Positions 7,316 through 59,794 of a stretch of 64,000 nucleotides of DNA are shown here, one piece after another (within the stretch, counting starts at the first letter, position 1; each line of letters begins with the position of its first letter). The position numbers and the translations under genes are program-made. The DNA lies in the NCBI RefSeq assembly GCF_029910095.1, contig NZ_CP094526.1:7006001-7070000 (forward strand), read 5' to 3'. The notes beneath the pieces are model-generated. The model searched no databases. It had not been told where the DNA came from and saw only the letters and a list, made by a program, of their open reading frames with translations. This DNA is from Bradyrhizobium sp. ISRA464. GTDB lineage: Bacteria > Pseudomonadota > Alphaproteobacteria > Rhizobiales > Xanthobacteraceae.

Positions 7316-7830
7316 CCAGGACGACGCCGAGTATGTTGCGCATTTTGTGGCTCACACATCCGCCTTCTCGCGACGGGAATCGTCCGAGCTTTGCATTTCG
7401 TTTCACCCTCTCTTGAACTGAGGGCGCAGGGAAAGCCGGGTGCCGATCGCACCCATGGGCCCGGTGCAACAAAAAAGCACCGGGGGTAGGACCACAGGTG
7501 AGACCGAAGAACACTCCGGCTTTCCCTGCGCGATGGGTTACGGCTTACTTCGTGCTCTCCCCGGCGAGACTTGGCTTTTTTGTCACCGTCTTCGCAAAGA
7601 CGCGTTCCGCGTCTTGCGAGGAGACACCTGCCACTGGGGCGTCAGAACCACACGACTTCACCGTCCGCCTCATGCACACTCGTCAGTTGCGCATTCCGCG
7701 TCCACCGCATCCCGACCCAACACTCGTGACGATCGCGAAGCGCCCCTCAAGCGGGTGAGACGGGGACATCATACACTGAGTTGCAATTCTGGAAAACAGA
7801 AATATTTGCGCGCGAGGGCTTGCGCCGTCG
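7316..7830. repeat. large structured repeat, copy 1 (left part; tail at 9512-9526 beyond the IS)
   Basis: This intergenic stretch aligns along its whole length with 59252-59794. It begins with the half-palindrome GCCAGGACGAC. It has a 16-bp perfect outer stem, 7424-7439 with 7516-7531. Inside are a GGGTGC/GCACCC hairpin and an 8-bp hairpin, 7460-7467 with 7477-7484, around an A-rich loop. A further hairpin at 7592-7619 is perfect except for one bulged A. Several stems differ in sequence from copy 2 but still pair. No reading frame is shared by the copies. The element is cut near its end by the IS at 7831-9511. It could be a structured RNA gene or a non-autonomous mobile sequence. Confidence 0.85.
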
Positions 7831-9511
7831 AGGCTGGGCAAGAACTCGGCATTTTTTGGAGTTGATGTACGATTCGGCGCATGGCGAATCGGACGTTCAA
7901 GGCCGGCGACAGCCGGGAGCAACCCAGTCTTCTTCCTCCCCGGATTGAGGACTATGTCGGACAGCAGAATCCGGTGCGGGCGATCGACAGTTTCGTTGGC
8001 GCGCTCGACCTTTCAAAGCTCGGCTTCCGCCATGCGGATCGTGCCGCGGACGAAGTGGGGCAGCCGCCCTACGATCCGGCCGATCTGCTGAAGCTCTACC
8101 TTTACGGCTACATCAACCAGATCAGGTCGTCGCGGCGGTTGGAGCGGGAGGCCTGCCGCAATCTGGAGCTGATCTGGCTGTTGAAGAACATGAAGCCGGG
8201 CTATCGGACGATCGCCAACTTCCGCAAGGAGAACTGGGCGGCGCTCAAGGCCGCGAACCGCAGTTTCGTGCTGCTCCTGCGCGACCTCGGCCTGATCGGT
8301 GGGACCTTCGTTGCGATCGACGGGGCGCTATTCCATGGTAACGCCAGCAAGGGCAGCATCTTCACGCAAGGGAAGCTGGCCAAACAGATCGCCGCGTTGG
8401 ACAAGGAGATCGAGGCTTATGGCAAGGCCCTTGAAGCCAACGATGCCGAGGAAGCCAAGCGATGTGCCGGTCCGGGAGATGGCAGCAAGGGCAGCGGCGA
8501 TGTCGGCGAGAAGGTGAAGGAGCTGATGGCCCGGCGCGAGCGCGCGCAAGCCGACCTCAAGAACCTGGAGACAAGCGACAAGGGGCAACTCTCGAAGACC
8601 GATCCCGACGCAAGGCTTCTGAGCAAGGGCGACCAGACCATTGCGGGTTACAACGTGCAGAGCGTCGTTGACGACAAGCACACGCTCATCGTTGCCAGCG
8701 AGGTCGTCAACCGCAACGACGCGGGCCATCTTCATGAGATGGCAAAGGCGGCAAAAGAGGCCCTCGACGTCGAGACTCTGCAGGTGGCGGCCGATGCCGG
8801 CTATTCCACCAGCGAGGACCTGAAGGCCTGCGAGGATGACGGCATTGTTGCCTATGTGCCGCTGCACGAGGGCAATGGCAAGCTCAAGGAAGGCCGCCTC
8901 AGCCGCAAGGACTTCAGTTACGATGCGAACGCCGATGCCTACCGTTGCCCGGCCGGCGAGCTGCTGCGCCCGACGGAAGGGCGCTGGACGAACACGAGCG
9001 GCCGCATCGAGATCCGCTACCTGGCGCGCAAGGCGGCCTGCGCAGCATGTCCCCTGAGCGCGCGGTGTCTTGCCCCGAAGGCGCCTTACCGGAGCATCGC
9101 GCGCTGGGAACACGAGGACGTTCTCGAACGTCACCGCATGAGGATGCAAAGCGCCGAGGCTGCCACATTGATGCGCCGCCGTTCCGCCATCGTCGAGCAC
9201 CCTTTCGGAACACTCAAATGCCGCGCCGGCTATCAGCACTTTCTCGTGCGCGGCTTCGACAAGGTCCGCGGCGAATGGAGCCTGATGGCGCTTTGCTACA
9301 ACTTCACCCGCGTGCTCAGCATTCTCGGCTTCGACCGCTTCGTCGCGTACCTTGCAGAAAAGACGCGCATTGCCGGCGCAAACCTCCTTGCGGCCACTCT
9401 GCGCGCCATTCGGCTTGCTTTGCGGCCCTTCCGCGCCAAAATCTCGCTGTCGCTCGTCGTCAGTGCTTTCCGAGCCGCCCCAGCCCCTTAGTTGCCATTC
9501 TTGCCCAGTCT
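7831..9511 (+). mobile_element. IS1182-family insertion sequence (copy C)
   Basis: Terminal inverted repeats are visible: AGGCTGGGCAAGAA at 7831-7844 and the reverse complement of AGACTGGGCAAGAA at 9498-9511. CGTCG directly precedes the left end (7826-7830) and directly follows the right end (9512-9516), giving a 5-bp target duplication. It encloses one transposase gene. Removing the element and one CGTCG restores a sequence that matches the tail of the large repeat copy at 59780-59794, so it inserted into that repeat. Confidence 0.85.
7881..9491 (+). CDS. IS1182-family transposase
   Basis: A 536-residue DDE transposase. The N-terminal domain has PPYDPADLLKLYLYGY and RSSRRLEREACRN, typical of this family. 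The catalytic triad is visible as Asp in VAIDGALFHGN, Asp in AADAGYSTSED and Glu in VEHPFGTLK. A Cys-rich stretch (CAACPLSARC) lies between the last two. It appears intact and is a diverged relative of the transposases at 14356-15822 and 57756-59222, with which it shares the N-terminal motifs. It is the only gene of the element. Confidence 0.93.
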   Translation: MANRTFKAGDSREQPSLLPPRIEDYVGQQNPVRAIDSFVGALDLSKLGFRHADRAADEVGQPPYDPADLLKLYLYGYINQIRSSRRLEREACRNLELIWLLKNMKPGYRTIANFRKENWAALKAANRSFVLLLRDLGLIGGTFVAIDGALFHGNASKGSIFTQGKLAKQIAALDKEIEAYGKALEANDAEEAKRCAGPGDGSKGSGDVGEKVKELMARRERAQADLKNLETSDKGQLSKTDPDARLLSKGDQTIAGYNVQSVVDDKHTLIVASEVVNRNDAGHLHEMAKAAKEALDVETLQVAADAGYSTSEDLKACEDDGIVAYVPLHEGNGKLKEGRLSRKDFSYDANADAYRCPAGELLRPTEGRWTNTSGRIEIRYLARKAACAACPLSARCLAPKAPYRSIARWEHEDVLERHRMRMQSAEAATLMRRRSAIVEHPFGTLKCRAGYQHFLVRGFDKVRGEWSLMALCYNFTRVLSILGFDRFVAYLAEKTRIAGANLLAATLRAIRLALRPFRAKISLSLVVSAFRAAPAP

Positions 9512-9555
9512 CGTCGGGCAAATCAGTGATTGACGCCTTCGACGACAGTCCGCGA

Positions 9556-10848
9556 TCACACCCCCAGCCGGTCCCTCACCCGCCCCGCCAGCACGGCGGT
9601 GGTGACACCGACGCGCCAGAATGCGTGCATCGGTATCGGCTTAATGCCCGTGATCGGCATGTCGATCTCGGCCGTGGCGCCGCCGATCAGACGGCGGGCA
9701 AGTTGCGCCCCCATCGCGGTCGAGAGCGCGACACCGCGGCCGTTGCAGCCGAGCGAGATCAAAAGATTCTCGGCGGGCTCGTGCACATGCGGATAGTGAT
9801 CCGCGGTGATGGCGAGCCGGCTGTTCCAGCCATGGGTCCAGGCGACACCCTTGAGCTGCGGCCACAGCCGCTCGGCATAGCGCATCAGATAGGCGACGTC
9901 GGACGGGCTCTTGATCCAGCGCATCGGGCCACGGCCGCCCATCAACAGGCGATTGCGCTGGTCGATGCGGTAATAGACCGTGATGTGGCCGCTCTCGTAG
10001 AGCACGGGCCGCGTCGGCATGATCGCGCGGGCGACCTCGTCGGACAGCGGCGCGGTGCAGGCGATCGAGGAGAACACCGGCACGATGCTGCGGCGGAGCG
10101 CCGGCCAGAGATCGTCGGTGAAGCCGTTGGTCGCGAGCAGCACCTTGTCGGCATGCACCACCGCGCGAGGCGTCTCGATCCGCCAGCGGCTGCCGTCGCG
10201 CCGCAGCGACAGCGCCGGCGTCTCGCCATGCACGGCCGCGCCAGCGCCGATCGCGGCGCGCGCCAGTCCCCGCGCGTAGCTCAGCGGATGCAGGTCGCCG
10301 CCACGCGCATCCAGCATGGCGCCGAGGTAGCGGTCGCTGCCGGTCAGCTCGCGCATCTCGGCGGCGTTCAGCAGCTTCACCGGCATGCCGCGTGCGATGC
10401 ATTGCTTCGCGGTCGCCGCGATCGCAGCGGCGCTGGCCTGGTTGTAGGCGGCGCGCAGCGTGCCGTTCTGCCGCGCCTCGCAGGGAATCTGATAGCGGCG
10501 GATCAAATCATGCGTGAAGTTGGTGGTGCCGTAGGAGAATTCGATCATGCGGCGGCCGAGGTCGGGGCCAAAATCGGCCTCGATCTGATCGGGGTCGTGC
10601 TTCAGCCCGGGATTGGTCTGCCCGCCATTGTTGCCGGACGCACCCCAGCCAGGCTCCTGCGCTTCCAGCACGGTGGCGAAGACGCCCTGCTCGGCGAGAT
10701 GCAGCGCGGTGGAGAGCCCGGTGAAGCCACCGCCGATGATCGCGACCGGTACGCTCGTATCCACGGTGAGCGGCGGCGTCGGCTCCGCGGGCGCGGCGGT
10801 GTCGGCATAGAGGCTAGGCGGCAGCGGCAGGCGAGTGGGTGGGGTCAT
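9556..10848 (-). CDS. FAD-dependent amine/amino-acid oxidoreductase (DAO family, gamma-glutamylputrescine oxidase-like)
   Basis: A 430-residue flavoprotein starting at ATG 10848. The dinucleotide-binding motif is VAIIGGGFTGLSTALHLAE, followed by the acidic residue that contacts ribose (VLEAQ). GASGNNGGQTNPGL and a C-terminal NLLISLGCNGRGVALSTAMG are characteristic of DadA/PuuB/OrdL-type oxidases. It probably oxidises a primary or secondary amine or amino acid. It is followed, across a repeat, by a polar amino acid ABC transporter and an XRE-cupin regulator, as in PuuB/PuuR-type polyamine or amino-acid catabolic loci. No strong ribosome-binding site is seen; an upstream in-frame start at 10899 comes close to the repeat. 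Confidence 0.87.
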   Translation of the reverse strand: MTPPTRLPLPPSLYADTAAPAEPTPPLTVDTSVPVAIIGGGFTGLSTALHLAEQGVFATVLEAQEPGWGASGNNGGQTNPGLKHDPDQIEADFGPDLGRRMIEFSYGTTNFTHDLIRRYQIPCEARQNGTLRAAYNQASAAAIAATAKQCIARGMPVKLLNAAEMRELTGSDRYLGAMLDARGGDLHPLSYARGLARAAIGAGAAVHGETPALSLRRDGSRWRIETPRAVVHADKVLLATNGFTDDLWPALRRSIVPVFSSIACTAPLSDEVARAIMPTRPVLYESGHITVYYRIDQRNRLLMGGRGPMRWIKSPSDVAYLMRYAERLWPQLKGVAWTHGWNSRLAITADHYPHVHEPAENLLISLGCNGRGVALSTAMGAQLARRLIGGATAEIDMPITGIKPIPMHAFWRVGVTTAVLAGRVRDRLGV

Positions 10849-10901
10849 GGGAGGGTACCGAACTTGGATAAGGCGATGTGGGCGCGTCGGCATATCCACG
10901 C

Positions 10902-11043
10902 GCTCCCTTCACCTCTCCCGCCTGCGGGGGAGGTCGCATTGCATCGCAGATGCAATGCGGGTGGGGGCTTTCTCCGCAACGAGACTCCGACTCGTGGCGA
11001 GACCCCCACCCCACCCCTCCCCCGCAAGCGGGAGAGGGAGCAC
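10902..11043. repeat. palindromic intergenic repeat, family 1 copy a
   Basis: An imperfect large palindrome bounded by CTCTCCCGC on the left and GCGGGAGAGG on the right. It contains a perfect 10-bp hairpin GCATTGCATC/GATGCAATGC. Related copies with different but still pairing hairpins lie at 35199-35335 and 63204-63354. It fills the gap between the oxidoreductase and ABC transporter genes. Confidence 0.8.
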
Positions 11044-11088
11044 AGTTCCGATGCGGCAACTGTTCGGCTCAACTTCATCGCCTCCGGG

Positions 11089-11820
11089 TCACAACGGGTG
11101 CAGCACGCGGCGCAGGAAATCCTGCGTGCGCGAGTGCTGCGGTTGATTGAGCACGGACTTGGCGGCGCCCTGCTCGACGATGACGCCGCCGTCGATGAAC
11201 AGCACGCGGTCGGCGACGTCGCGGGCGAAGCCCATCTCGTGGGTGACGACGACCATGGTCATGCCGTCGTCGGCGAGCTTGCGCATCACCGAGAGCACCT
11301 CACCGACCAGTTCAGGATCGAGCGCCGAAGTCGGCTCGTCGAACAGGATCGCCTTCGGCTGCATCGCCAGCGCGCGGGCGATGGCGACGCGCTGCTGCTG
11401 GCCGCCCGAGAGCTGCGGCGGATGCACGTCGGCCTTCTCGGCGAGACCGACCTGTGTCAGCAGCGCACGGCCGCGCGCGATCGCCTGCTCACGCGGCTCC
11501 TTCTTCACATAGAGTGGCCCCTCGATGACGTTCTCCAGCGCGGTGCGATGCGGGAACAGGTTGAAGCGCTGGAACACCATCGAGACCTGGGTGCGGATCG
11601 CCACGATCGAGGGCGAGTTGCGATCGACCCGCGCACCCTCGACGCTGATCTCGCCACGGTCATAGCTCTCGAGCCCGTTAATGCAGCGCAGGATGGTCGA
11701 CTTGCCGGAGCCGGAGGGGCCGATGATGCAGACCACCTCGCTTTTCGCGACCGACGCCGAGATGCCCTTCAGCACCTCGACCTTGCCAAAGCTCTTGTGA
11801 ACGTCTTTCAGCTCGATCAT
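11089..11820 (-). CDS. polar amino acid ABC transporter ATP-binding protein (GlnQ-like)
   Basis: A 243-residue ATPase of the PAAT family. Walker A is GPSGSGKST, the signature is LSGGQQQR, Walker B is [13 protein letters not shown] and the switch His is in [10 protein letters not shown]. It energises import of a polar amino acid or related compound through the permease encoded directly upstream. Its ATG overlaps the permease stop by four bases (ATGA), indicating translational coupling. With the permease and the binding protein at 12711-13478 it makes a complete importer. Confidence 0.95.
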
Positions 11821-12470
11821 TTGCGGTTCGCCTTGGTCTCGAAGTGCCGAACCAAGAGGATGAGCGGAATGCTCATGGTCAGATACATCAGCGCAACAAG
11901 CGTGAATACGCTGGTGTTCTTGAAGGTGGAGGAGGCGATCAATTTACCCTGCAGCGCGAGCTCGGCGACCGTAATCGTCGAGGCCTGCGACGAATCCTTC
12001 AGCATCATGATCATGATGTTGCCGTAGGGCGGCAGCACGATCCTGACTGCCTGCGGCAGCACCACACGGCGCATGGTGAGCCACCAGCCCATCCCGATGG
12101 TCTGCGCCGCCTCGATCTGTCCCTTGTCGATCGCCTCGATGCCGGCGCGGAAGTTTTCGGCCTGGTAGGCCGAATAGGCAATGCCGAGCCCGAGGATCGC
12201 CGCCTGCAGCGCCGTCAGCGCGATACCGAAATCGGGCATCACAAAATAGAGGTAGAACAGCAGCACGATGATCGGGATGCCGCGGATCACGTTGATGAGC
12301 GAGGCGCTGAGGCCCACGAAGAAGCCGATGCCCGACACCCGCATCAGTGCCCACACCAGCCCGAGCACGGTCGACAGCGCCAGCGAGCCGACGGTGACGA
12401 CGACTGTCAGCCAAACACCCTGCAGCAGGATCGGCACGAACTCGGCGGCGTCACTGACAAATTTCTGCAT
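11817..12470 (-). CDS. polar amino acid ABC transporter permease (HisM/GlnP family)
   Basis: A 217-residue inner-membrane permease with about five transmembrane segments. The cytoplasmic EAA loop that contacts the ATPase is seen in [21 protein letters not shown]. Only one permease gene is present, so the channel is probably a homodimer. Its stop overlaps the ATPase start. A gap of 240 bases containing a palindromic repeat separates it from the binding-protein gene, which may reduce expression of permease and ATPase relative to the binding protein. Confidence 0.93.
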
Positions 12471-12542
12471 CGGCTCAAACGCGCGACTTCATAGGGATAG
12501 TTGACGAGCTCTTGGGTGAAAGGCTGCGAATGTATCCACGCC

Positions 12543-12665
12543 CGTCATTGCGAGGAGCGCCAGCGACGAAGCAATCCATCGCTCCGCGTGTGCGGGCCGA
12601 TGGATTGCTTCGCGGAGCCTGTCATCGGGCGGCGCTGCGCGCCGACCCGTTGGCTCGCAATGACG
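12543..12665. repeat. palindromic intergenic repeat (CGTCATTGCGAG type)
   Basis: Bounded by CGTCATTGCGAG at 12543-12554 and its exact reverse complement CTCGCAATGACG at 12654-12665. Inside are GAAGCAATCCATCG and its reverse complement CGATGGATTGCTTC. It lies between the ABC permease and binding-protein genes. The form is a widespread bacterial intergenic palindrome type; a role as transcript stabiliser or attenuator is inference. Confidence 0.8.
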
Positions 12666-12710
12666 TGGAGAATACGGTGAAGCACAATTTCAAATCCCGG
12701 GCACACGCTC

Positions 12711-13478
12711 TCAGGACGCGTTGGCCTTCTGGCCCCATTTCTCGAGGATCTTTGCAATGGTGCCGCTGGCCTTGAGCTTGGCAAGCGAGGCATTGATCTT
12801 CGCGAGCAGCGCGGTGTCGCTCTTGCGGACGCCGATCGCGACAGTGCCGACGGTGGCGGGCTTGTAGCCATCGACCAGGCGCACGTCGGCGAAATTGCCC
12901 TGCTGCAGGTTGTAGGCAAGGATCGGATAGTCGGCGAAGCCGGCCTTGAGGCGGCCTGCATTCACGTCGCGCAGGATGTCGGGAATGCTGTCGTAGACCT
13001 TCACCTCGCTGAACAGCCCGGTCTTCTTCAGCGCGTCGACAAAGGCGGTGCCGACCTGGGCGCCGACCACCGTGCCCTTCAAATCCTCCTGCGAGGTGTA
13101 GGCCTTGGTGTCGGTCTTCGGCACCACGAGGCCCTCGCCATAGGTGTAGACGGGATCGGAGAAGTCGATCACCTCCTTGCGCGCGGCGGTCGCGAACATC
13201 GCGGCGGCGATGATGTCGATCTTGTTCGAGGTCAGCGAGGGGATCAGCGCCGAGAACTGCATCGGCTCGATCTGAACGGAAAAGCCGGCGTCCTTGCCGA
13301 TCTCGGTGGCGAGATCGACCATGATGCCCTGGATCGAGCTGGTCTTGGTGTCGAGGAAGGTGAAGGGGATTCCGGTCGGTGTCGAGCCGACCTTCAGGAC
13401 TTGCTGCGCCTGCGACGGCGCGCTCAAGGCAATGGCAAGCGCCGCGATCGCGGCCTGGACGAGACGCTGAAAGGACAT
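12711..13478 (-). CDS. ABC transporter periplasmic substrate-binding protein (amino acid type)
   Basis: A 255-residue SBP_bac_3 protein. GGGAGGTG precedes ATG 13478, which decides the start. An Ala-rich signal peptide ends near APSQAQQ. The mature protein begins VLKVGSTPTGIPFTFLD, the usual first strand, and contains GIMVDLATEIGKDAGF and VVGAQVGTAFVDALKK, typical of polar amino acid receptors. It should deliver ligand to the permease and ATPase downstream. It is divergent from an XRE-cupin regulator whose candidate operators lie in the shared promoter region. Confidence 0.92.
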   Translation of the reverse strand: MSFQRLVQAAIAALAIALSAPSQAQQVLKVGSTPTGIPFTFLDTKTSSIQGIMVDLATEIGKDAGFSVQIEPMQFSALIPSLTSNKIDIIAAAMFATAARKEVIDFSDPVYTYGEGLVVPKTDTKAYTSQEDLKGTVVGAQVGTAFVDALKKTGLFSEVKVYDSIPDILRDVNAGRLKAGFADYPILAYNLQQGNFADVRLVDGYKPATVGTVAIGVRKSDTALLAKINASLAKLKASGTIAKILEKWGQKANAS

Positions 13479-13563
13479 CGCAACACCTCCCGAAGCTGAC
13501 ACTGGCGCCGCGTCGCCCGATGGTTTCGAGCTTGTTGTTGCGGGCGACGCCGTTCCGGCCTAT

Positions 13564-13628
13564 TTTCACCGATATGAAATTGTGGTCACGAAACCGCGGC
13601 CAATGCAAGCAGTTTTCATGCACATGAA
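13564..13628. promoter_or_regulatory. two operator-like dyads between transporter and XRE-cupin regulator
   Basis: TTTCA-N6-TGAAA spans 13564-13579 and TTCATG-CA-CATGAA spans 13615-13628. Both share TTCA/TGAA half-sites and lie in the 164-base divergent intergenic region. They are plausible binding sites for the XRE-cupin protein encoded at 13643; binding is inference. Confidence 0.5.
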
Positions 13629-13642
13629 GGAAGCGGCCTGAC

Positions 13643-14299
13643 GTGAGCGGCGGCAAGCGAATGCGCAAGGGAGCGGCAGGCAAGCCTGCGACGGCGCACC
13701 GCGCGGCAAGGAAGCCGGCCGAGCCGCCGGTCGACCTCGCGGTCGGACGCCGCATCCGCGATCTGCGCCGCGCCAAGCAGATGTCGCTGGAGACGATCGC
13801 CGCCCGCACCAGGCTGTCGATCGGCTTCATCAGCCAGATCGAGCGCGGCCTTTCGTCGCCCTCGCTGCGGGTGCTGGCGACGCTCGCCGATGTGCTCGGC
13901 GTCGGCATCGCCGGGCTGTTCGGTGCCGCACCGAATGACGACGCTGCCTCAAACGGCGTGGTCACCCGCGAGGCGCAGCGCGCCGAGCTGAAGCTGTGGC
14001 GCACCGGAGTCTCGAAGCAATTGCTGAGCCCGGCCGGCAGCGAAAGCCGGCTCAATCTGTTCCTGGTGCATCTCGCGCCCGGCGGCAGCACGGGCGACGA
14101 GCTCTACACCCATGACGGCGAGGAAGCCGGCCTTGTGCTCGAAGGCGAGATGACGCTGACCGTGGACGCCGAGACCTGGACGCTGAAGCAGGGCGACAGC
14201 TTCCGCTTCGCCAGCCGCCGGCCGCACCGCTTCTCCAATCCGGCCGACGATGCGAAGGCCGTGGTGCTGTGGGTGAATTGCGTGACGGCGGCGGGCTGA
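13643..14299 (+). CDS. XRE-family HTH regulator with C-terminal cupin domain
   Basis: A 218-residue regulator. After a basic tail of about 30 residues comes the helix-turn-helix (GRRIRDLRRAKQMSLETIAARTRLSIGFISQIERG, residues about 36-70). A cupin_2 domain covers the C-terminal third (GEEAGLVLEGEMTLTVD, GDSFRFASRRPHRFSNP). Such PuuR-like proteins usually sense a small amine or amino acid in the cupin barrel and repress neighbouring catabolic or transport genes. The start is GTG 13643 after GAAGGAAG. It is divergent from the ABC transporter, its probable target. Confidence 0.9.
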   Translation: MSGGKRMRKGAAGKPATAHRAARKPAEPPVDLAVGRRIRDLRRAKQMSLETIAARTRLSIGFISQIERGLSSPSLRVLATLADVLGVGIAGLFGAAPNDDAASNGVVTREAQRAELKLWRTGVSKQLLSPAGSESRLNLFLVHLAPGGSTGDELYTHDGEEAGLVLEGEMTLTVDAETWTLKQGDSFRFASRRPHRFSNPADDAKAVVLWVNCVTAAG

Positions 14300-14330
14300 G
14301 TCGCGTCTATCCATCGTCGTCCCGGCGAAG

Positions 14331-15878: not shown

Positions 15879-15927
15879 GAAGGCCGGGACGACGATGATG
15901 ATTAACCCTTCGTCGTGTCGAACGACA

Positions 15928-18195: not shown

Positions 18196-18198
18196 GCA

Positions 18199-47400: not shown

Positions 47401-47415
47401 GTAACCGTTGATTAA
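47401..47415 (-). promoter_or_regulatory. candidate CtrA box upstream of cheA
   Basis: On the minus strand it reads TTAA-N7-TTAC, seven of eight consensus positions, 158 bases before the cheA start. It lies between chpT and cheA. Confidence 0.4.
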
Positions 47416-47435
47416 CAGTGTGGCCGTGGCCGCGT

Positions 47436-48086: not shown

Positions 48087-48227
48087 AGATTGTTCCTGGA
48101 AAGCCGCACGCCGCGGGAGGAGTGCGAATCACGCATGCCTGTTGGCTTGATACACTGCGAAGACGCATGCTGCCAGCTGGCGGCGGGACTGATAAGGGGG
48201 GAGACGAACAGGATATGAGATCCGCTC

Positions 48228-49055: not shown

Positions 49056-49056
49056 T

Positions 49057-49563: not shown

Positions 49564-49673
49564 AGTTGATACCGATAACATCCGAGTCGAGGGGACACTG
49601 GGCGCAACCTAGAGCCGTGCCTGTTGGCATAGGGTTAAGGGCGACGCCCGGATTTCGATAGCAGGGGTTCTTA

Positions 49674-50279: not shown

Positions 50280-50414
50280 TCGCTGTCTGCACGGGTGGTC
50301 CGGCCGACCCTGGCCGCGAATCAGCGATTCACGTTAACGCCGCAATGGGCTGGCCTTTGGCCGGCCCACCATGGCATTGTGATTAACGAATTCTTTGTTG
50401 TGGAGTGACCCTTC

Positions 50415-51698: not shown

Positions 51699-51714
51699 TC
51701 TCGAAGGTCTTGGC

Positions 51715-51744
51715 TTGACACCCCTACCCGGCACTTCGTAAATC
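51715..51744 (+). promoter_or_regulatory. sigma-70-type promoter before tRNA-Val
   Basis: TTGACA at 51715-51720 and TAAATC at 51739-51744 are 18 bases apart, 65 bases before the tRNA. Confidence 0.5.
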
Positions 51745-51808
51745 GCAGCCTCTGACGAAGCGCGTTTCGACCGGCCGCCGAACAGCGGCCTTTCGCACGT
51801 CACATCCC

Positions 51809-51883
51809 GGACGCATAGCTCAGCGGGAGAGCGTTCCCTTCACACGGGAGAGGTCCAAGGTTCGATCCCTTGTGCGTCCACCA
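51809..51883 (+). tRNA. tRNA-Val (anticodon CAC)
   Basis: The acceptor GGACGCA pairs with TGCGTCC. D arm GCTC/GAGC, anticodon loop TTCACAC (anticodon CAC), and T arm CAAGG-TTCGATC-CCTTG are all present. The CCA end is encoded. It reads GUG codons. Confidence 0.97.
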
Positions 51884-51959
51884 TCCCCCTACCGATAACC
51901 GAGGTGGGCGGAGACATGCCCACATCACCGATCTGACCGCCGGGCCTCCCGGCCTTCGA

Positions 51960-52313
51960 CTACTGCCGCGCAGGCTGCGGAGACGGCGCGGGCGTACGCC
52001 GGTTGAGTTCGCCGAGCAAATCGCGCACCGCCCCGTCGAATTCATCGGGCTGGCGACGGGGGTCGACCTGCTGCGCGCTGCGTGATGCCCGGCGGCGGCC
52101 CGAGAAAGCGTTGGCCGCAACCAGAAGCCCCTCGAGATTGATGAGGTCTTCTCGTCCCGCACCGATAAGCGGCGGCGTGTGCTGCTGCGGTTGGACCGCC
52201 GGAACGTCACCGCGCGCCGCCCGGCGGCGACGGCGAGACTTCATCTCGCGCAGGCCATATCCCGAACCGAAGCCGATGCCCATGGCGATAAGAATGATCA
52301 GAAGTCCAAGCAT
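51960..52313 (-). CDS. hypothetical single-pass membrane protein, 117 aa
   Basis: ATG 52313 begins MLGLLIILIAMGIGFGSGYGL, a membrane helix, followed at once by a strongly basic segment (KSRRRRRAARG) that keeps the rest in the cytoplasm. The C-terminal 80 residues are polar. No domain is recognised. It converges with the tRNA. Confidence 0.65.
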   Translation of the reverse strand: MLGLLIILIAMGIGFGSGYGLREMKSRRRRRAARGDVPAVQPQQHTPPLIGAGREDLINLEGLLVAANAFSGRRRASRSAQQVDPRRQPDEFDGAVRDLLGELNRRTPAPSPQPARQ

Positions 52314-52506
52314 TGTGTTGTCTCGCAACCACCCTGCCGCAGCGCAGTAAACGCGACAATGAGGCAGGGGCTTGACGATTACGGTTCCCTTTCATGGAGA
52401 ACGCTCGGTGCCGGCGGCACTCTGGGATCCACGGAATCCTACGGGCTTTTATTTGATGTCCTCCTCCGCTACCTTCCGCGGAACTCGCGGGGGCGTGGGC
52501 AATTCG

Positions 52507-52878
52507 ATGCGCAAGGGCAACGACTACATCTTGAAACTGCGCCCCTGGTCGCTGTCCACGTTCGCCGCCGCCCTGCTGGCCGTGGTGTTCGCCACCGCGA
52601 TGCAGGAGGTCTTCGCGACCTTCGGCCTGCAACTCTACTTCGCGACCTTCGTCCCCGCGATCCTGATCGCGGGTCTCCTGGGCGGCGCGCCCGCCGGGGC
52701 CTTTGCCACCATCATCACCGTTCCAATCGTGTGGTGGGTGTTCATCCCCCCCTGCTTCGAGTTCGCGTGGCCCACGGCCGCCGACTACGACAGCATCTCG
52801 ACCTTCCTGCTGTCGAGCGCGCTTCTGGTCTGCTTCTCGCAGCTCTATCGTGAAGCGCTCTTTATCTTGCGGAAGTGA
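52507..52878 (+). CDS. stand-alone DUF4118-like membrane protein, 123 aa
   Basis: A protein with four hydrophobic helices (STFAAALLAVVFATAMQEVF, ATFVPAILIAGLLGGAPAG, AFATIITVPIVWWVFIPP, ISTFLLSSALLVCFSQ). GGxxAG and the helix order resemble the DUF4118 membrane sensor found at the N-terminus of histidine kinases such as KdpD relatives. Here it ends after the fourth helix, with no kinase behind it. The start at 52507 is preceded by a G-rich stretch; an ATG at 52456 is an alternative. Confidence 0.68.
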   Translation: MRKGNDYILKLRPWSLSTFAAALLAVVFATAMQEVFATFGLQLYFATFVPAILIAGLLGGAPAGAFATIITVPIVWWVFIPPCFEFAWPTAADYDSISTFLLSSALLVCFSQLYREALFILRK

Positions 52879-53007
52879 AATTTTGCGGAAGTGAAATTCG
52901 ATCGCGCCATGCGCGCTGCCCGCTTGCGCCCGCCGACGGGCAGGAAGCGGATCGGCGCAGCCTCGCTGCGGCACGCCGGCTGCGGTGAACTGCCGATGTC
53001 GCCGCCC

Positions 53008-53148
53008 TCAGATCCCGAACATCCAGACGGCGATGATGGTGGCGAGCGTCGCTACGCCGCTGATGGTCCAGCCGACCGCGTAAAAGGCGTTCTCGGGGGC
53101 GGTATCGAGCACCGCGTCGGTCGTTTCCGTCACTGATCGCCAGCGCAT
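53008..53148 (-). CDS. small membrane protein, 46 aa
   Basis: GAGGAGAGG directly precedes ATG 53148, and an exact EcfG-type promoter lies 35 bases further upstream. The peptide has an acidic N-terminal half and one membrane helix (VGWTISGVATLATIIAVWMF). Both signals together support a real stress-induced small gene. Function unknown. Confidence 0.72.
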   Translation of the reverse strand: MRWRSVTETTDAVLDTAPENAFYAVGWTISGVATLATIIAVWMFGI

Positions 53149-53182
53149 GGCGCCTCTCCTCGGAACTCCTGCCCATCCGCAT

Positions 53183-53207
53183 AACGCGGAGCCAAGTTCC
53201 CGGTTCC
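53183..53207 (-). promoter_or_regulatory. EcfG-type (general stress) promoter
   Basis: On the minus strand GGAAC (53207-53203) is followed after 16 bases by CGTT (53186-53183), an exact consensus match, 35 bases before the 46-aa gene. Confidence 0.62.
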
Positions 53208-53605
53208 CGCCGACGGACGCGGGCCGCACCGGCCACGCAAACTGATCTGTGTCGCGGAACCTGCGACAATCCGCCAAATCCGGCGGCGAAGCGACCAAGC
53301 AACAGTGAGAAACAATCGCGCCCGGCGCGCACAGGAAAGGCCGCCCGCGGGGCGGCCTTTCCCAGTCTCGGGCAGTGACGTCGCGATCGGTCCAGCCGTC
53401 ACGGCCGGTGAATTCAGGTGCGGAAGGGGGAGCGAAAGAGAAGCGAAGCCGGTGATATGCAGCGCCATATGATCGTACTGAAAATTGACCACCAGCCCCT
53501 GTAATTGCTCCACCTGCCGCGCCTCACTTGTGGCGCGATGATGCGAGCGGCGCATGATCCAAACGGGCTATCACGGCAATCGCGGCCCACGATTCAGCGC
53601 CAGGC
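53208..53605. other. intergenic region with one strong hairpin
   Basis: GGAAAGGCCGCC at 53334-53345 and its reverse complement GGCGGCCTTTCC at 53351-53362 pair across five bases. The hairpin has no long T-run; it could end a short RNA. No convincing gene is seen; a 141-codon minus-strand frame has no ribosome-binding site. Confidence 0.45.
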
Positions 53606-54142
53606 TTAACGCCGAACGTCATCGTCGCGCTTTCCCGCGAGCTCACTCACGCGCAGCCGCTCGGCAAACCAGATCGACGTCACCGGCTCGATCGCGCCGC
53701 CGACATAGACCTCCGACGACGTCACCCCATTCCGTCCGACGATCACCAGCACGCCGATCTCGTAGGCGAACCAGACATGCGGATCGGTCAGCGCCTGCAG
53801 CTTGTGCTGATCGTGCTCGATCGGCTGGTGATTGCTGTCCTTGCGCAGCTCGATGGCCAGCAGATTGTTGGGAATGTCGCGCTGATGCACGACGATGTCG
53901 GGATAGATCGATTTGCCGAGATGATCGTCGGACGAGACGGTCGAGCCGCGCGGCAGCCGCAGCGTGCGCTCGCCGAGCCGGTCGTAGTTGCAATCGGTCT
54001 GCCAGCCGGCGAACTGCCGCTCGACATAGACCGCCAGCCGGTGAGTGAGTGTCCGCTCGCCGAGATCGCGCTCCAGCAGGAAGCGTTCCTGTGCGTAGAA
54101 ATCCTGCAGCGCGGCGATCACCTTGTTCAGCTGGGTCTGCAT
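53606..54142 (-). CDS. hypothetical protein with PD-(D/E)XK nuclease-like core
   Basis: A 178-residue protein. The N-terminal helices (TQLNKVIAALQDFYAQERFLLERDL) lead to a core with SIYPDIVVHQRD and NNLLAIELRKDSN. This order is that of a PD-(D/E)XK restriction-like fold. The ExK motif reads E-L-R-K, with Arg where the catalytic Lys is normally found. A following Lys might substitute. A single gene without modification partner, so a restriction system is unlikely. Homology was judged by eye only. Confidence 0.6.
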   Translation of the reverse strand: MQTQLNKVIAALQDFYAQERFLLERDLGERTLTHRLAVYVERQFAGWQTDCNYDRLGERTLRLPRGSTVSSDDHLGKSIYPDIVVHQRDIPNNLLAIELRKDSNHQPIEHDQHKLQALTDPHVWFAYEIGVLVIVGRNGVTSSEVYVGGAIEPVTSIWFAERLRVSELAGKRDDDVRR

Positions 54143-54191
54143 GAGGCCTCCGACTGACAGGGCCGCGCTGCGGCCGGTTGGGATATGCGCC

Positions 54192-55739
54192 CTACATCTG
54201 CACTTCGATCAGTCGCGGGCCAGGCTCCGCGACGGCTTCCGCCAAGGCCTTGTTGAACTCGTCCGCATTGGTCACCGCGCGACCCGGTACGCCCATGCCC
54301 TTCGCGAGCGCGACGAAATCGAGCGTCGGCCGGTCGATCTTCAGCATATCCTGCGCGCGCTGGCCCGGCTCGCCGGCGCCGACGCCGTCGAACTCGCCGC
54401 GCAGGATCTGGTAGATCCGGTTGGCGAACACGACGGTGACGACGTTGAGCCCTTCGCGCGCCTGCGTCCAGAGCGACTGGATCGTGTACATCGCGCTGCC
54501 GTCGCCGACCATGCAGATCACCTTGCGGTCGGGGCATGCGATCGCCGCACCGGTTGCGACCGGCGTCGAGAAGCCGATCGAGCCGCCCATGTTCTGCAGC
54601 CAGTCATGCGGCGCCGCGGCGGCCGTCGGCGGAAAGAAGCCGCGGCCGGTGGTGACGGACTCGTCGACCATGATCGCGTTCTCGGGGATCGCGTAGGCGA
54701 TCGCCTGCGCGATCGTCGTGTAATTGAGCGCGCCGGTCGGCTTGACCAGCTCCTGCCGCTGCTGCGGCTTGACATCCTGGGCCGTGGCATGGAGCACGTT
54801 GGCGAGCGCCTCAAGCGCCGCTACCGAGTTCTCGCCCCAGGCGGTCATGCGATGCACATCGCAGCCTTCCGCCTTGAGCAGGCTCGGCTTGTTCGGATAG
54901 GCGAAGAACGCCACGGGATCGTTGGCCTCGACCAGCACGATGTGCCGGAAGTCTCTAAGGATCGGCAGCGCCTGCTCGATCACATAGGGAATGCGGTTGA
55001 TCGAGAACCGGCCACGGCCGCGCGCCATGCGCGGGTGGAAAGTCTGGCCCATCACGGTGCAGCCGGTCTTGCCGGCGATCCGCTCCGCCAGCACCAGCCC
55101 CTGCTCGGAGAGCGCGCTGCCGGTGATCAGCAGCAGCGTATGCGCCGCATCGCCGTGCAGGATCCTCGCCGCGGTGTCCACCGCCTGCGGCGAATAGCTC
55201 GGGCGCTGCTTCTCCGCCGGCACCTCGGCAATTCCGTCGGCCTCGTTCCAAGCGGTGTCGGCGGGCAGGATCAGCGTTGCGATCTGCGGCGGCGCACTCT
55301 TGGCTGCCGCGATCGCGGCCGCGCCGTCTGAAGCGACCGACTTCGCATCCGGCGAGGTGCGCACCCAGGCCGACATCGGCCGCGCCAATCCCTCGATGTC
55401 AGACGTCAGCGGCGCGTTGTAGCCGATGTGATAGGTCGCATGTTGGCCGACGATGTTGACGATGCCGGAATGGGCCTTCTTGGCGTTGTGCAGATTGGCG
55501 AGCCCGTTGGCGAGGCCGGGCCCGAGATGCAGCAGCGTCGAGGCCGGCGTGCCCTTCATGCGGAAATAGCCGTCGGCGGCGCCGGTCACGATGCCCTCGA
55601 ACAGGCCGAGCACGCAGCGCATGCCCGGGACCCTGTCCAGCGCGGCGACGAAATGCATCTCGGACGTGCCCGGGTTGGTGAAGCAGACATCCACGCCGCC
55701 CGCGACCAATGTCCGCACCAGGCTTTCCGCACCATTCAT
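54192..55739 (-). CDS. thiamine-diphosphate enzyme, acetolactate synthase large subunit-like
   Basis: A 515-residue ThDP enzyme. The N-terminal PYR domain has GVDVCFTNPGTSEMHF and the catalytic Glu in LFEGIVTGAADGY. The C-terminal PP domain has the ThDP/Mg motif starting GDGSAMYTIQSLW and ending VVFANR, spacing as expected. It is shorter than true IlvB, and there is no adjoining regulatory small subunit, so a decarboxylase or carboligase acting on another 2-oxo acid is likely. Confidence 0.9.
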   Translation of the reverse strand: MNGAESLVRTLVAGGVDVCFTNPGTSEMHFVAALDRVPGMRCVLGLFEGIVTGAADGYFRMKGTPASTLLHLGPGLANGLANLHNAKKAHSGIVNIVGQHATYHIGYNAPLTSDIEGLARPMSAWVRTSPDAKSVASDGAAAIAAAKSAPPQIATLILPADTAWNEADGIAEVPAEKQRPSYSPQAVDTAARILHGDAAHTLLLITGSALSEQGLVLAERIAGKTGCTVMGQTFHPRMARGRGRFSINRIPYVIEQALPILRDFRHIVLVEANDPVAFFAYPNKPSLLKAEGCDVHRMTAWGENSVAALEALANVLHATAQDVKPQQRQELVKPTGALNYTTIAQAIAYAIPENAIMVDESVTTGRGFFPPTAAAAPHDWLQNMGGSIGFSTPVATGAAIACPDRKVICMVGDGSAMYTIQSLWTQAREGLNVVTVVFANRIYQILRGEFDGVGAGEPGQRAQDMLKIDRPTLDFVALAKGMGVPGRAVTNADEFNKALAEAVAEPGPRLIEVQM

Positions 55740-55963
55740 GGTCTCGCTCCCGTCAGAGATGTTCTTGTAGTCGGGTCCAGATCAACCATTGTTCGCCCGT
55801 TTCGTCAAAGGTTTAGCCGATCAATGCAGGTATCGCGTCCGATGTGTTGCCTTTTTAAACCGTGTTGTTCGAAAGTCGTGATCTCACGGCATCGTCGGTT
55901 GCGAAACACCTCCGATTGTGGCGTGTCTCGACACATACTTGGTGCTTCCTGGGGGTCACGACG

Positions 55964-56533
55964 ATGCGCCCGATTGCCTTGATCTTTGCTGCGCTCACGA
56001 TACTCGCAGGCGCCAGCCAGGCGCAGGCGGAATTCTTCGACACCCACGACTTCATGGACAGTGGACCGAGCTTCTTCGGCCACGGCGCGAGCCCGATCCC
56101 GCGCACCGCCGTCAACTATCCGACCAATTATGCGCCCGGCACCATCGTCGTGAATACCGCCGAGCGGCGGCTCTATCTGGTGCTGCCGGGCGGCCAGGCG
56201 CTGCGCTACGGCATCGGCGTCGGCCGTGACGGCTTCCGCTGGAGCGGAACCCACCGCGTCAGCGCGAAGAAGGAATGGCCGTCGTGGACGCCGCCTTCGC
56301 AGATGCTGCGCCGCCGTCCCGATCTGCCGCGCCACATGGCCGGCGGCATCGAGAATCCGCTCGGGGCGCGTGCGATATATCTCGGCTCGACACTGTACCG
56401 CATCCACGGCTCGAACGAGCCCGAGACGATCGGCCAGGCGATCTCGTCCGGCTGCTTCCGCATGACCAATGATGACGTCGTCGACCTCTACAACCGTGTC
56501 TCGGTCGGCACCACCGTCGTGGTGAAGAACTGA
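55964..56533 (+). CDS. L,D-transpeptidase (YkuD family)
   Basis: A 189-residue exported enzyme that makes 3-3 peptidoglycan crosslinks or attaches proteins to peptidoglycan. Signal peptide ends near AQAEFF. The YkuD domain begins GTIVVNTAERRLYLVLPGG. The active site is complete: IHGSNEPETIG and SSGCFRMTNDDV with the catalytic Cys and Arg. GGGGGT precedes ATG 55964. The next gene follows after 93 bases. Confidence 0.93.
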   Translation: MRPIALIFAALTILAGASQAQAEFFDTHDFMDSGPSFFGHGASPIPRTAVNYPTNYAPGTIVVNTAERRLYLVLPGGQALRYGIGVGRDGFRWSGTHRVSAKKEWPSWTPPSQMLRRRPDLPRHMAGGIENPLGARAIYLGSTLYRIHGSNEPETIGQAISSGCFRMTNDDVVDLYNRVSVGTTVVVKN

Positions 56534-56626
56534 TCGCGCCGGCCTCGGGCGGCGCTGACACAGCGATCCGGCATGACGGCTGATCTTGCCTTGCGCTGCC
56601 GCGCCTCTTGCGGCAGCGTCCTCGGA

Positions 56627-57421
56627 ATGCGGCACCGCCTCTCGACCCTGCTCCTCCTCGCCGCGGCAATTGCTGCCGTCGACACCGCGATCACGTCCGC
56701 CGTCGCCGCCGAGATTCCGGCGGTCACGTCGCGCCAGCGTACCGAGAAGAAGGCGTTCAGCGACACCGAGATCGTCGAGGGCTTCCTGAAGACCGCGTTC
56801 GGCGCCGAATATCATCTCGCCGGCCGGGTCGATCGCATCAGGAAATACGACAGCCCGGTGCGCGTGTTCGCCGACGGCACCCGCGCCGACCGCAAGACCC
56901 AGCTCGCGAAAGTCGTCGCCGACATCCGCGCCAAGGTCCAGCATCTCGACATCGCGATGACCGAGGACACCAGCGCGGCCAATGTGCGCGTCAAGCTCGT
57001 GCGTGACCACGACCTCTACCGCACTATCGCGACCTTCTACGGCCGCGAACGCGCCAAGGAGATCCGCAGCTCGCTCGACCCGCAATGCCTGTCCGGCTTC
57101 CGCAAGAACGACAACTACGAGATCGAGCATTCCGACGTGATCCTCACCGTCGACAATGGCGACTTCGTCTTCTTCGATTGCGCCTATGAGGAGCTGCTGC
57201 AGTCGCTCGGGCCGATCAACGACACCGCAACCGTGCCGTGGACCATGTTCAACGACAATGTCTCCATGGGCTATTTTGACGTCTACGACCAATACCTGCT
57301 GAACCTGCTCTACGATCCCCGCATCAAGGCCGGCATGACAGTGCAGGAGGTCAAGGCCGTGCTGCCCGATGTGCTTGCCGACGTGCGCGCCTGGGTGAAG
57401 AAGGTGAATCACCTGGAGTGA
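56627..57421 (+). CDS. DUF2927 domain-containing exported protein
   Basis: A 264-residue protein starting MRHRLSTLLLLAAAIAAV, a signal peptide that ends near AVAAEIP. The domain (IVEGFLKTAFGAEYH, YDSPVRVFADG, SGFRKNDNYEIEHSDVIL, FFDCAYEELLQSLGPIND) matches DUF2927, whose fold resembles secreted metalloproteases but whose function is unknown. DPRIKAGMTVQEVKAVLP is conserved near the C-terminus. An upstream ATG at 56573 is possible but would hide the signal peptide. Confidence 0.85.
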   Translation: MRHRLSTLLLLAAAIAAVDTAITSAVAAEIPAVTSRQRTEKKAFSDTEIVEGFLKTAFGAEYHLAGRVDRIRKYDSPVRVFADGTRADRKTQLAKVVADIRAKVQHLDIAMTEDTSAANVRVKLVRDHDLYRTIATFYGRERAKEIRSSLDPQCLSGFRKNDNYEIEHSDVILTVDNGDFVFFDCAYEELLQSLGPINDTATVPWTMFNDNVSMGYFDVYDQYLLNLLYDPRIKAGMTVQEVKAVLPDVLADVRAWVKKVNHLE

Positions 57422-57455
57422 AGCGTCGTAGGCGCTTCGCTCGCAGCACACACCA

Positions 57456-57699
57456 GTGTCGTCCTGGCGAAAGCCGGGAGCTGATGTCGTGCCACATCCG
57501 CCACCGTCGTCCCGGCCTGGTGCGCAATTGCGCACGGGAGGCCGCGACCCATACCCCGCGGCTTGTGTTGTGAACGGGACTCGTCGTTCGTCGTCCTGGC
57601 GAAAGCCAGGACCCATAAGCACCGCATTTGGTGATGAACGCGATCTTGGCCCCAGCATCGCGCGACAACCGACATTTGGGGTAATGGGTCCTGGCTGTC
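57456..57699. repeat. short palindromic repeats around GTCGTCCTGGCGAAAGCC
   Basis: GTCGTCCTGGCGAAAGCC occurs near 57460 and again near 57590, each with an inverted arm. A divergent unit GTCGTCCCGGCCTGG lies between. A further arm GTCCTGGC at 57688-57695 is interrupted by IS copy B and completed beyond it at 59252. The same palindrome type is the IS target at 14312-14330. Confidence 0.75.
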
Positions 57700-59247
57700 C
57701 AGGCCGTGCAAAAATGTCGGCGCGGTGCCTGGAGCTGAGAACGAGGAGGGCACCCTCAAGCTGGACAAGGCCGGAGCGCCTTGAGCAGAGCGGGTACGCT
57801 CTTGATGGCAATCAGTCTCTTGAGGTTGTAGGCGATGATGCTGAGCGCCAGTTCGGCTTTGGCTTTGCGCAATCCGCGGACGAGGAAGCGCGGGGTTCCC
57901 ATCAACCATTTGATGGTCGCGAACGGATGCTCGGCGACTTCGCGGCGGAGCCTCATCCAGCTTGGATCGGCGATCGCCCGCTGATGCATGGCCTCGCGGT
58001 CATCGTCATGGAAGCCGCGCACGATGATCCGCTGCGCCGCCTCGGTGCATTGCGATTTCAGCGGACAGGCCGGGCAGGCTTGCGTCCGATATTCCTTCTT
58101 CTGTTTGGTGTGGGAGGTCTTGAAGAGTTGGAGGACCTCACCGGCAGGGCAACCCCAGCTGTCGCTCTCTCGGGCGTAGCTGAACTGATCGCGGCTGAAG
58201 TATTGCTTGCCCTTCGGATTGACCCGCTCGCCATGCGGTACGATCGCGGTGATCCCGTCCTGCTCACATTGCTTGCCGTGCGCGCCGTTGGCATAGCCGG
58301 TATCGGCAACGACGCTCACCTGATCGGCGCCGACGGCCGCCTTGCCCTGCCGGGCCATCGGGTGGAGTTGCTGCAGATCGTTGCCCTCGTTGGTCAGATC
58401 GAACGCAACGATCATGTCATGCTGGGCATCGACCGCGATCTGTGCATTGTAGGCAACCTGATGGCCGCGCGGCGTGCGCATGAGCTTGGCCTCAGGCTCA
58501 CCCAGCACCTTCTGCTTGAGCCCTTCCTGAACCAGCTGTTCGGCCTGCTGCTGCAATTCAGCCCGCTGAGCCCTCAACGCGGCAAGGGCTGCAGCCACGT
58601 CGGTCTTGGTCGGCTCAAGCGGCGTCTCCTCGGCGTCGGCCTCATCCATCGCCGTCAGGTAGTCGGCGATCTTGCGCTCGATCGCCGCATCCCGCTCCGC
58701 AAGCTTCGCCTTGGTGATCACCTGCTTGCGGCTCGCCGCCGCAGCAATCTTGCTCCCGTCGATCGCCAGGACTTCGCCTCCAAACACCGATTGCTCGCGG
58801 CAGAACTTTATAAAGGCCCGGCAGACCCCGGCAATCGCCTCAGGATAGTCCTTGCGGAAGTCCGCAATGGTCTTGAACACCGGCCTCACCCGGTTGATCA
58901 GCCAGAACACTTCGACATTGCGCCGAGCCTCACGCTCAAGCCGCCGGCTCGAACGCATCTGGTTCAGATACCCGTAGACATAAAGCTTCAACAGATCGCG
59001 CGGATCGTAAGGCGGCCGCCCCGTCGCCTCCGCCTCAACGTTCGAGAAACCCAGCCCGGCAAGGTCCAGGCTGTCCACAAAACCGTCAATGACGCGCACC
59101 GCGCTGTCTGCCGCGATCACCTCGTCCAACGTCTCGGGATACAACGTCGCCTGATAGCGCGATTGGCCAACGATGTGTGCCATCCTGCCCCCGAATCCGT
59201 CTCTGCCTCCCAAATCCAACATCAGACCGTGGTTTTTGCACGGCCTG
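57700..59247 (-). mobile_element. IS1182-family insertion sequence, copy B
   Basis: Same ends as copy A (CAGGCCGTGC...GCACGGCCTG) in the opposite orientation. It sits between arms GTCCTGGC (57688-57695) and GCCAGGAC (59252-59259). The four-base loop positions on each side are TGTC and GAAA, so no target duplication remains. The internal gene encodes a transposase identical to that of copy A. Confidence 0.9.
57756..59222 (-). CDS. IS1182-family transposase (copy B)
   Basis: A 488-residue transposase with the same predicted sequence as the gene at 14356-15822. The DDE residues are in LAIDGSKIAAAAS, VVADTGYANGAHG and VAEHPFATIKW. Alternative start at 59183 (MAHIVGQ). Intact. Confidence 0.94.
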   Translation of the reverse strand: MLDLGGRDGFGGRMAHIVGQSRYQATLYPETLDEVIAADSAVRVIDGFVDSLDLAGLGFSNVEAEATGRPPYDPRDLLKLYVYGYLNQMRSSRRLEREARRNVEVFWLINRVRPVFKTIADFRKDYPEAIAGVCRAFIKFCREQSVFGGEVLAIDGSKIAAAASRKQVITKAKLAERDAAIERKIADYLTAMDEADAEETPLEPTKTDVAAALAALRAQRAELQQQAEQLVQEGLKQKVLGEPEAKLMRTPRGHQVAYNAQIAVDAQHDMIVAFDLTNEGNDLQQLHPMARQGKAAVGADQVSVVADTGYANGAHGKQCEQDGITAIVPHGERVNPKGKQYFSRDQFSYARESDSWGCPAGEVLQLFKTSHTKQKKEYRTQACPACPLKSQCTEAAQRIIVRGFHDDDREAMHQRAIADPSWMRLRREVAEHPFATIKWLMGTPRFLVRGLRKAKAELALSIIAYNLKRLIAIKSVPALLKALRPCPA

Positions 59248-59251
59248 GAAA

Positions 59252-59794
59252 GCCAGGACGACAGTGAGTTTGTTGCGCGGCTTGTGAGTCATACGCTCGC
59301 ATTCTCGCGGCGCGATGCGTCCGAGGTTTGGTGCCATCTTCGCCGCTCTGGAAGCAGAGGGCGCAGGGAAAGCCGGGTGCCGATCGCACCCATGGGTCCG
59401 GTGCAACAAAAAGCACCGGAGGTAGGACCACAGGTGAAACCGGAAAACACTCCGGCTTTCCCTGCGCGATGGTTTACGGCTTATACGTGCTCTCCCCGGC
59501 GAGACTGGGCTTTGTTGTCACCGTCATCAGTGCGAGGTCTTGCCCCTTACTGATGAGACACCTGCCACTGGGGCGTCAGGTCTGCACGATTTCGCCGTCC
59601 GCCCCATGCGCACTCGTCAGTTGCACGTGAGGCGTCCACCGCATCTCGACCCAACACTCGTGACGATCGCGAAGCGCCCCTCAAGCGGGTGAGACGGGCT
59701 ATTCATACACTGAGTTGCGATTCTGAAAAACAGAAATATTTTGCGCGAGAGGTCTTGACAGGTCTTTGACCGAGTTGCCTCGTCGGGCAAAACA
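59252..59794. repeat. large structured repeat, copy 2 (uninterrupted)
   Basis: It aligns with 7316-7830 plus 9512-9526 from GCCAGGACGAC to CGTCGGGCAAAACAG. The 16-bp outer stem is 59361-59376 with 59452-59467. The A-loop hairpin is 59397-59404 with 59413-59420; its closing pair is T-A where copy 1 has C-G. At the place of the strong hairpin of copy 1 stands CATCAGT/ACTGATG (59525-59531, 59549-59555), a different sequence that also pairs. The A-loop is one base shorter, so no frame is kept. The 658-base gap to the next gene contains no other gene. Confidence 0.85.

Follow-up and report, generated by a model that had tools for sequence, protein, structure and literature searches.

The window analysed here is a stretch of 64,000 nucleotides (7,006,001-7,070,000) from the genome of Bradyrhizobium sp. 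ISRA464, a single contig of 8,462,457 bases. It carries two copies of a repeat, each with a putative RNA on the minus strand. In copy 1, the RNA body (7360-7764, delimited by alignment with other copies and by the consensus structure) would have its 5' end near 7761 and its 3' end near 7360. Within it lie, all on the minus strand, a 3'-terminal hairpin (CTCG..CGAG) at 7367-7388, a long rod at 7424-7531 that is closed by a 16-bp outer stem, a covarying hairpin capping the rod at 7461-7483 (the A-loop hairpin, its loop being U-rich on the RNA strand), and a hypervariable third hairpin with conserved anchors at 7582-7628. The rod is drawn from folding and covariation, and the 3'-terminal, cap and third hairpins from the pairing of own and swapped halves (see below). 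Upstream of the RNA on the same strand is a promoter-like site at 7768-7795 (-35 TTTCCA at 7790-7795, a 16 bp spacer and -10 TATGAT at 7768-7773).

Copy 2 has the same parts on the minus strand, assigned on the same grounds: the RNA body at 59297-59698, the 3'-terminal hairpin at 59304-59325, the rod with its 16-bp outer stem at 59361-59467, the cap hairpin at 59398-59419 and the third hairpin with its anchors at 59517-59562. Its promoter-like site at 59702-59729 is weak (-35 TTTTCA at 59724-59729, 16 bp, -10 TATGAA at 59702-59707). Along the plus strand, a copy often starts directly after a CGTC-type palindrome and runs from the CTCG..CGAG hairpin through the 16-bp stem and its interior and the third hairpin to the conserved block CGTGACGATCGCGAAGCGCCCCTC; past this block is a region of several classes that bears the promoter-like site. 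This region upstream of the RNA moves along with many copies. A further repeat (type GGAAGGGTTCCCTCTCCCC) often comes next after the upstream end, e.g. at L034, L054 and L063; it is also found without family copies.

The upstream end of copy 1 is interrupted by an IS1182-family insertion on the plus strand (7830-9512, transposase 7881-9491) flanked by a 3-bp GTC duplication (7827-7829 and 9513-9515), and alignment places the remainder of that end, on the minus strand, at 9513-9530. By exact end match, the same insertion sequence lies at a GTC of the upstream end region in 17 of 84 copies, in both orientations, and as a tandem double in four of them (L033, L060, L078 and L079). The other bearers are L037, L045, L056, L066, L071, L081, L088, L097, L107, L108, L111 and L114. 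A second IS1182-family element, on the minus strand (57688-59259, transposase 57756-59222), is bounded by inverted arms at 57688-57714 and 59233-59259 and lies within the palindromic repeat next to copy 2.

Family size and known identities

The initial annotation had described a two-copy repeat. Sequence alignment bears out both copies as genuine and alignable; the family to which they belong numbers ~88 copies with the rod in this genome, at 90 places altogether, by pattern searches and fetched sequence. Searching with a 30-base core and allowing 3 mismatches gave 84 places, 70 of them exact over all 30 bases, and the reversed control gave none. End patterns, and the sequence around six further places, added three complete copies, one copy with the rod swapped for foreign DNA and two truncated copies, one retaining the rod. 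The end-pattern search gave 87 matches, of which two were judged to be chance; more diverged copies may have been missed. An initial look by similarity gave 135 candidates, and the 40 that were scored had 83-90% identity, excluding the query itself.

That the repeat is non-coding, as first proposed, is supported in the larger set: the spacings between conserved anchors take all three values modulo 3 in each of eight intervals. At gathering scores, the sole Rfam 15 match in the whole window is a tRNA gene (51809-51880), and no family matched the repeats. Relaxed searches gave two weak matches in 59000-60000 (up to E 10) and four at four loci from other genera (up to E 0.5), all under cut-off. 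The suggested search for a known Rfam family thus ended with none matching the repeats above cut-off; the group I and group II intron models had no match in the window, in 59000-60000 or at the four other-genera loci. Annotated plasmid and phage collections gave no match either, which speaks against a plasmid or phage origin.

The unit is not itself a REP element (a palindrome of 20-40 bp ending in CGTC): it is ~400 nt long, and REPs are its neighbours. No end-to-end inverted repeat was found around the two window copies; many copies have, by eye, a short inverted pair in their upstream end. No target duplication was found at the copies, where flanking repeats that vary from species to species would mask one. 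The literature searched, including the accessible part of PMC3091675 and with most subscription papers lying outside the search, contained no description of the repeat, and searching literature text with strings of its sequence gave no match. The main text of two structured-RNA surveys of other genomes (PMC8632094 and PMC11109978), as far as it was accessible, does not contain 'Bradyrhiz-'.

Fold, covariation and strand

The 16-bp outer stem was predicted for both window copies and is present in both (7424-7439/7516-7531 and 59361-59376/59452-59467). The two stems are identical, so this pair alone demonstrates no compensation there. Unlike in the window pair, compensation in the outer stem is visible among relatives, in the comparisons with other genera and of 92 copies: the stem is GCGCGCGGAACGCCGG and its complement in other genera vs GCGCAGGGAAAGCCGG and its complement in Bradyrhizobium, which means that several base pairs have been exchanged on both sides. 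The closing pair of the A-loop hairpin is C-G in copy 1 and T-A in copy 2, and the third hairpin differs in sequence between the copies and pairs in both, as the initial annotation had read them.

To compare each hairpin with its counterparts, the halves of a hairpin were paired with their own partners or swapped among copies. The four hairpins were located in 121, 123, 120 and 109 of 124 copies; as inspection by eye showed part of the segments from the 40 relatives to be off target, the figures given are for own-genome rows only. With their own halves, the A-loop hairpin (-16.8 vs -12.6 +/- 0.36 kcal/mol when swapped, n=37 distinct segments), the third hairpin (-14.7 vs -10.1 +/- 0.58 kcal/mol, n=57) and an end hairpin absent from the initial annotation (-4.31 vs -3.27 +/- 0.18, n=46) were all more stable. 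The short hairpin just before the outer stem, which had been thought compensatory, showed no covariation (-4.61 vs -4.61, n=76).

We then considered all 26 modelled pairs in 92 distinct copies. Of the cells, 98.2% pair, vs 88.8 +/- 0.4% in shuffles, and pairing drops to 34-47% when the partners are slid. Two-sided change was seen in 13 of the 26 pairs, a result attained by 0 of 500 shuffles; this alignment was fitted to the structure of the model and is biased towards it. A tree-based strict null was applied to an independent alignment of the rod (68 of 94 copies left after a 95% identity filter). Here one pair reached E < 0.05 and the next two had E 0.29; these top three sit in the consensus, which holds seven of the top 20 and nine of the top 50 among 6,216 pairs. 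A run on the whole element likewise gave one pair at E < 0.05. In the larger set of copies that had been called for, the two-sided changes support the fold, and the strict null leaves one pair. What is found is a large non-coding RNA-like structure with a fold kept by compensatory change, more weakly so under the strict null. We read the fold as real on these comparisons, with more sequences needed for significance under the strictest test.

The departures from Watson-Crick pairing are asymmetric between the strands. On the plus strand, the outer stem (120 of 124 copies counted, some cells being shared by descent) has 35 A.C cells vs 3 G.T, the cap hairpin 11 vs 2 and the third hairpin 41 vs 32. 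Since an A.C cell reads as G.U on the opposite strand, the minus strand seems to be the selected one. The folding energies agree: the fold of copy 2 has a z of -7.04 on the minus strand vs -5.65 on the plus strand, and the consensus energy for 61 copies is -276.8 vs -219.5. (One consensus folding alignment took in 112 of the 124 copies, and one step of the analysis took 28 of 34 selected segments.) On the minus strand, the interior of the outer stem extends as one long rod topped by the A-loop hairpin. The two side hairpins that had been drawn inside the outer stem come from folding the plus strand, the wrong one. The plus-strand fold is disfavoured by both the wobble asymmetry and the energies, and pairing, energy and, in other genera, a near-consensus promoter-like site at a constant position all point to the minus strand as the strand under selection.

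Distribution, placement and mobility

With six candidates per genome scored, 113 of 117 genomes of the genus had a DNA match. A model search of the host's taxonomic family gave matches in 39 of 149 genomes, which represent 16 of 47 genera, with 1 to 10 matches per genome in the other genera; in an order-wide sample, the four matching genomes (of 150) were all from the home genus. Both the taxonomic-family and the order scans used stricter filters, by which weak matches are lost. Among the matches listed, records with the end motif were mostly from Bradyrhizobium and also from Afipia and Rhodopseudomonas, with a few under other names, mainly metagenome bins. The end motif is present on two contigs classed as viral (L397 and L398).

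With a simple gene caller and an allowed overlap of up to 60 bp, 83 of 84 copies lie outside predicted genes; 32 are flanked by convergent genes and nine by divergent ones. A low-G+C stretch of ~1.4 Mb (5.6-7.0 Mb), perhaps a symbiosis island, holds one of the 84. Outside the genus, 20 of 42 candidate neighbour frames were scanned and no consistent partner gene was found: 18 gave Pfam families, mostly unrelated, among them the same transglycosylase domain twice and one IS110 transposase. One copy lies beside a transglycosylase gene common to two genera (84% identical over 248 residues), and the copies there are 85% alike, vs a median of 62% between other-genera copies.

We examined mobility by seeking the flanks of five sites in three other species, and four sites were comparable with the nearest species found. 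Three of these four (L034, L039 and L047) are empty there. At L034, the genes are 804 bp apart here, ~347 bp in the nearest species and ~240 bp in another, neither with the unit; the third has a larger unrelated arrangement. At L039, 810 bp here corresponds to ~289 bp without the unit in the nearest species, while a second has the unit with other ends and the third only its first 36 bp, beside a REP. At L047, the three species lack the unit and have ~184, 96 and 148 bp where there are 824 bp here. A single match also runs across this last site in 24 further species, out of the 26 (from 265 genomes) listed at E 1e-136 or better, a threshold that favours spanned matches and hence empty sites. 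On the simplest reading of these alignments, the L047 copy would be a gain in this lineage. At the fourth site, L043, the nearest species also has a copy next to the left gene (L274, ~993-1100), with the right flank on another contig; the flanks of L041 lie apart in the compared species, which makes it uninformative. The occupancy of L043 in both species, together with the neighbour gene shared by two genera, indicates that some copies are stable. In the nearest species, the REP at L034 carries the same type of tail with the unit missing, so the tail is apparently the REP's and the boundary of the unit comes after it. No mobilising enzyme was found for the family.

The origin was placed near 0.18 Mb and the terminus near 4.2 Mb from the G+C skew of sampled stretches. 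In this genome, the RNA strand is co-oriented with the fork, and the plus strand against it, at 54 of 88 places (p 0.042), and at 48 of the 68 places more than 0.75 Mb from the terminus (p 0.0009). Near the terminus (3.45-4.95 Mb) the tendency is reversed (6/20 with the fork, 14/20 against it; best-split permutation p 0.0105). Two other complete genomes gave 23/34 (p 0.058) and 32/51 (p 0.092), and 49/72 together outside the terminus zone, which is only suggestive of co-orientation with the fork. The origin of one, G061, is uncertain (23 to 11, or 25 to 9 under another placing), and one genome's count covers 51 of 52 places, one being judged no element. The reversal was not significant in these two genomes (7/13 reversed, Fisher p 0.21), so we do not claim it. 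Genes near copies run 337 with the fork vs 265 against it outside the terminus zone. Insertion at forks would suit the bias of the copies, and so would selection against head-on transcription; the two are inseparable here.

The promoter-like site was scanned from an anchor located in 75 of 84 own-genome copies, 36 of 40 from the genus and 19 of 23 loci from other genera. In the other genera, a sigma-70-like site scoring at least 9 is present on the RNA strand in 17 of 19 copies and on the other strand in 13, with mean scores of 15.5 vs 9.3; it is often the near-consensus TTGACA-N16/17-TATATT. The best site is at a fixed place in 18 of the 19 (vs 12% of shuffles) and scores at least 12 there in 16 (vs 0.6%). 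In our genome, 67 of 75 copies have their best site at this place (vs 12%), a count inflated by common descent, and 35 of the 67 score at least 9; a site with that score occurs on the RNA strand in 36 of 75 copies and on the other strand in 39. Other species of the genus have it in 11/36 copies vs 26/36 on the other strand, with the best RNA-strand site at the fixed place in 16/36. Taking these sites as consensus matches only, the argument for a promoter is strong outside the genus and weak within Bradyrhizobium, where the site may have decayed or changed.

Interpretation of the family

The conserved fold, the selected strand, the intergenic placement, the sites empty in relatives and the fork-leaning orientation are shown by these comparisons. 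We put the probability that the repeats are a new family of large structured-RNA genes, spreading as a non-autonomous mobile element, at roughly 0.55. Each repeat would then be a gene for a structured RNA of ~400 nt on the minus strand, read from just downstream of the promoter-like site. From 5' to 3', the predicted transcript would have a hairpin domain, a branched middle part that includes a single hypervariable hairpin, the rod (~110 nt, closed by 16 bp) and a terminal hairpin. Other genera of this bacterial family have few copies per genome, with near-consensus promoter-like sites; in Bradyrhizobium the copies have multiplied, to ~88 here, and would do so as a non-autonomous element whose enzyme is encoded elsewhere. 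That enzyme may act on single strands exposed at the replication fork, with copies inserted next to REP palindromes that lie downstream of genes, and the fold may be what the enzyme or a bound protein recognises. The initial annotation had proposed either a family of structured RNAs or a transposable unit marked by its structure. Both ideas gain support, from paired changes throughout the family and from the empty sites; the strand and one hairpin needed correction, and the promoter-like site and the copy number are additions.

Somewhat unlikely, in our judgement, is that the repeats are host RNA genes with a cellular function (e.g. protein-binding or regulatory), spread by duplication and recombination and kept by selection. 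The presence in 16 of 47 genera sampled, the near-consensus promoter-like sites outside the home genus, the 85% likeness (vs the 62% median) beside the same neighbour gene in two genera and the identity of 70 of 84 copies over the 30 core bases would all suit such genes. They are set against a copy number that ranges from one to ~88, the absence of the unit from three of the four sites that could be compared with the nearest species found, and the mostly unrelated families of the 20 neighbour proteins in other genera.

We consider it quite unlikely that the family is a DNA-only mobile element, akin to REP/REPIN or to IS200/IS605-mobilised units, whose fold would work at the fork in the form of single-stranded DNA, any RNA being incidental. 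G.T pairs are tolerated in DNA too, and the orientation that leans with replication, the abutting REP palindromes and the region upstream of the RNA that travels with many copies are consistent with it. However, the near-consensus site of other genera, which keeps a fixed distance and is on the strand that folds better, points to transcription, and REPs are only 20-40 bp long (PMC3733652, as far as accessible).

A bacterial SINE-like element, copied through its RNA by a reverse transcriptase encoded elsewhere with priming at the fork, would account for 5' truncations and for the lean with the fork; we regard it as improbable. The RNA 3' end is retained in all four truncated copies examined, which is what copying through RNA would produce, but the number is small, and there are partial matches of another kind in other species. 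The promoter-like site lies outside the RNA and is thus ill-suited to copying through RNA alone. A decayed protein gene or coding repeat is scarcely credible: its second plus frame has a mean of 1.7 stops vs 3.6 when shuffled and is stop-free in 29% of copies, but the frame test rejects it, with anchor spacing kept modulo 3 in 0 of 8 intervals, and the changes follow base pairing.

Among known systems, OLE, GOLLD, ROOL and HEARO are RNAs of several hundred nt with an elaborate conserved fold, some of them tied to mobile elements. The family proposed here resembles them in size and elaborate fold and differs in having no Rfam match; we know of no large structured RNA class dispersed in tens of promoter-bearing copies. 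MITEs and non-autonomous elements of the IS200/IS605 type take their enzyme from elsewhere, and some are oriented by the fork. In contrast to these, no end-to-end inverted termini were found around the two window copies, and the family has a conserved RNA fold and a promoter-like site. The CGTC-type REP palindromes of alphaproteobacteria are 20-40 bp long, intergenic, present in many copies and often downstream of genes, according to the accessible part of PMC3733652. The family is likewise intergenic, palindromic, multicopy and often downstream of genes, and such palindromes abut the plus-strand 5' end of many copies here; however, REPs are single palindromes, whereas the family unit is a ~400-nt structure of several domains that comes with a promoter-like site. 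Br-REP1 and Br-REP2 of Bradyrhizobium are intergenic repeats found via RNAs overlapping 3'-UTRs (PMC5082802, in the part accessible). They share genus and intergenic position with the family, but from what that part gives they have another consensus and are much shorter.

If this reading is correct, well-studied nitrogen-fixing bacteria gain a class of large structured RNA for which our searches, within their reach, found no description. The family explains a sizeable set of repeated intergenic DNA, which insertion sequences use as a landing site, and its dozens of natural variants in one genome make the fold, the promoter and the mobility directly testable. Should movement depend on the RNA, bacteria would have in this family a rare counterpart to eukaryotic short interspersed RNA genes.
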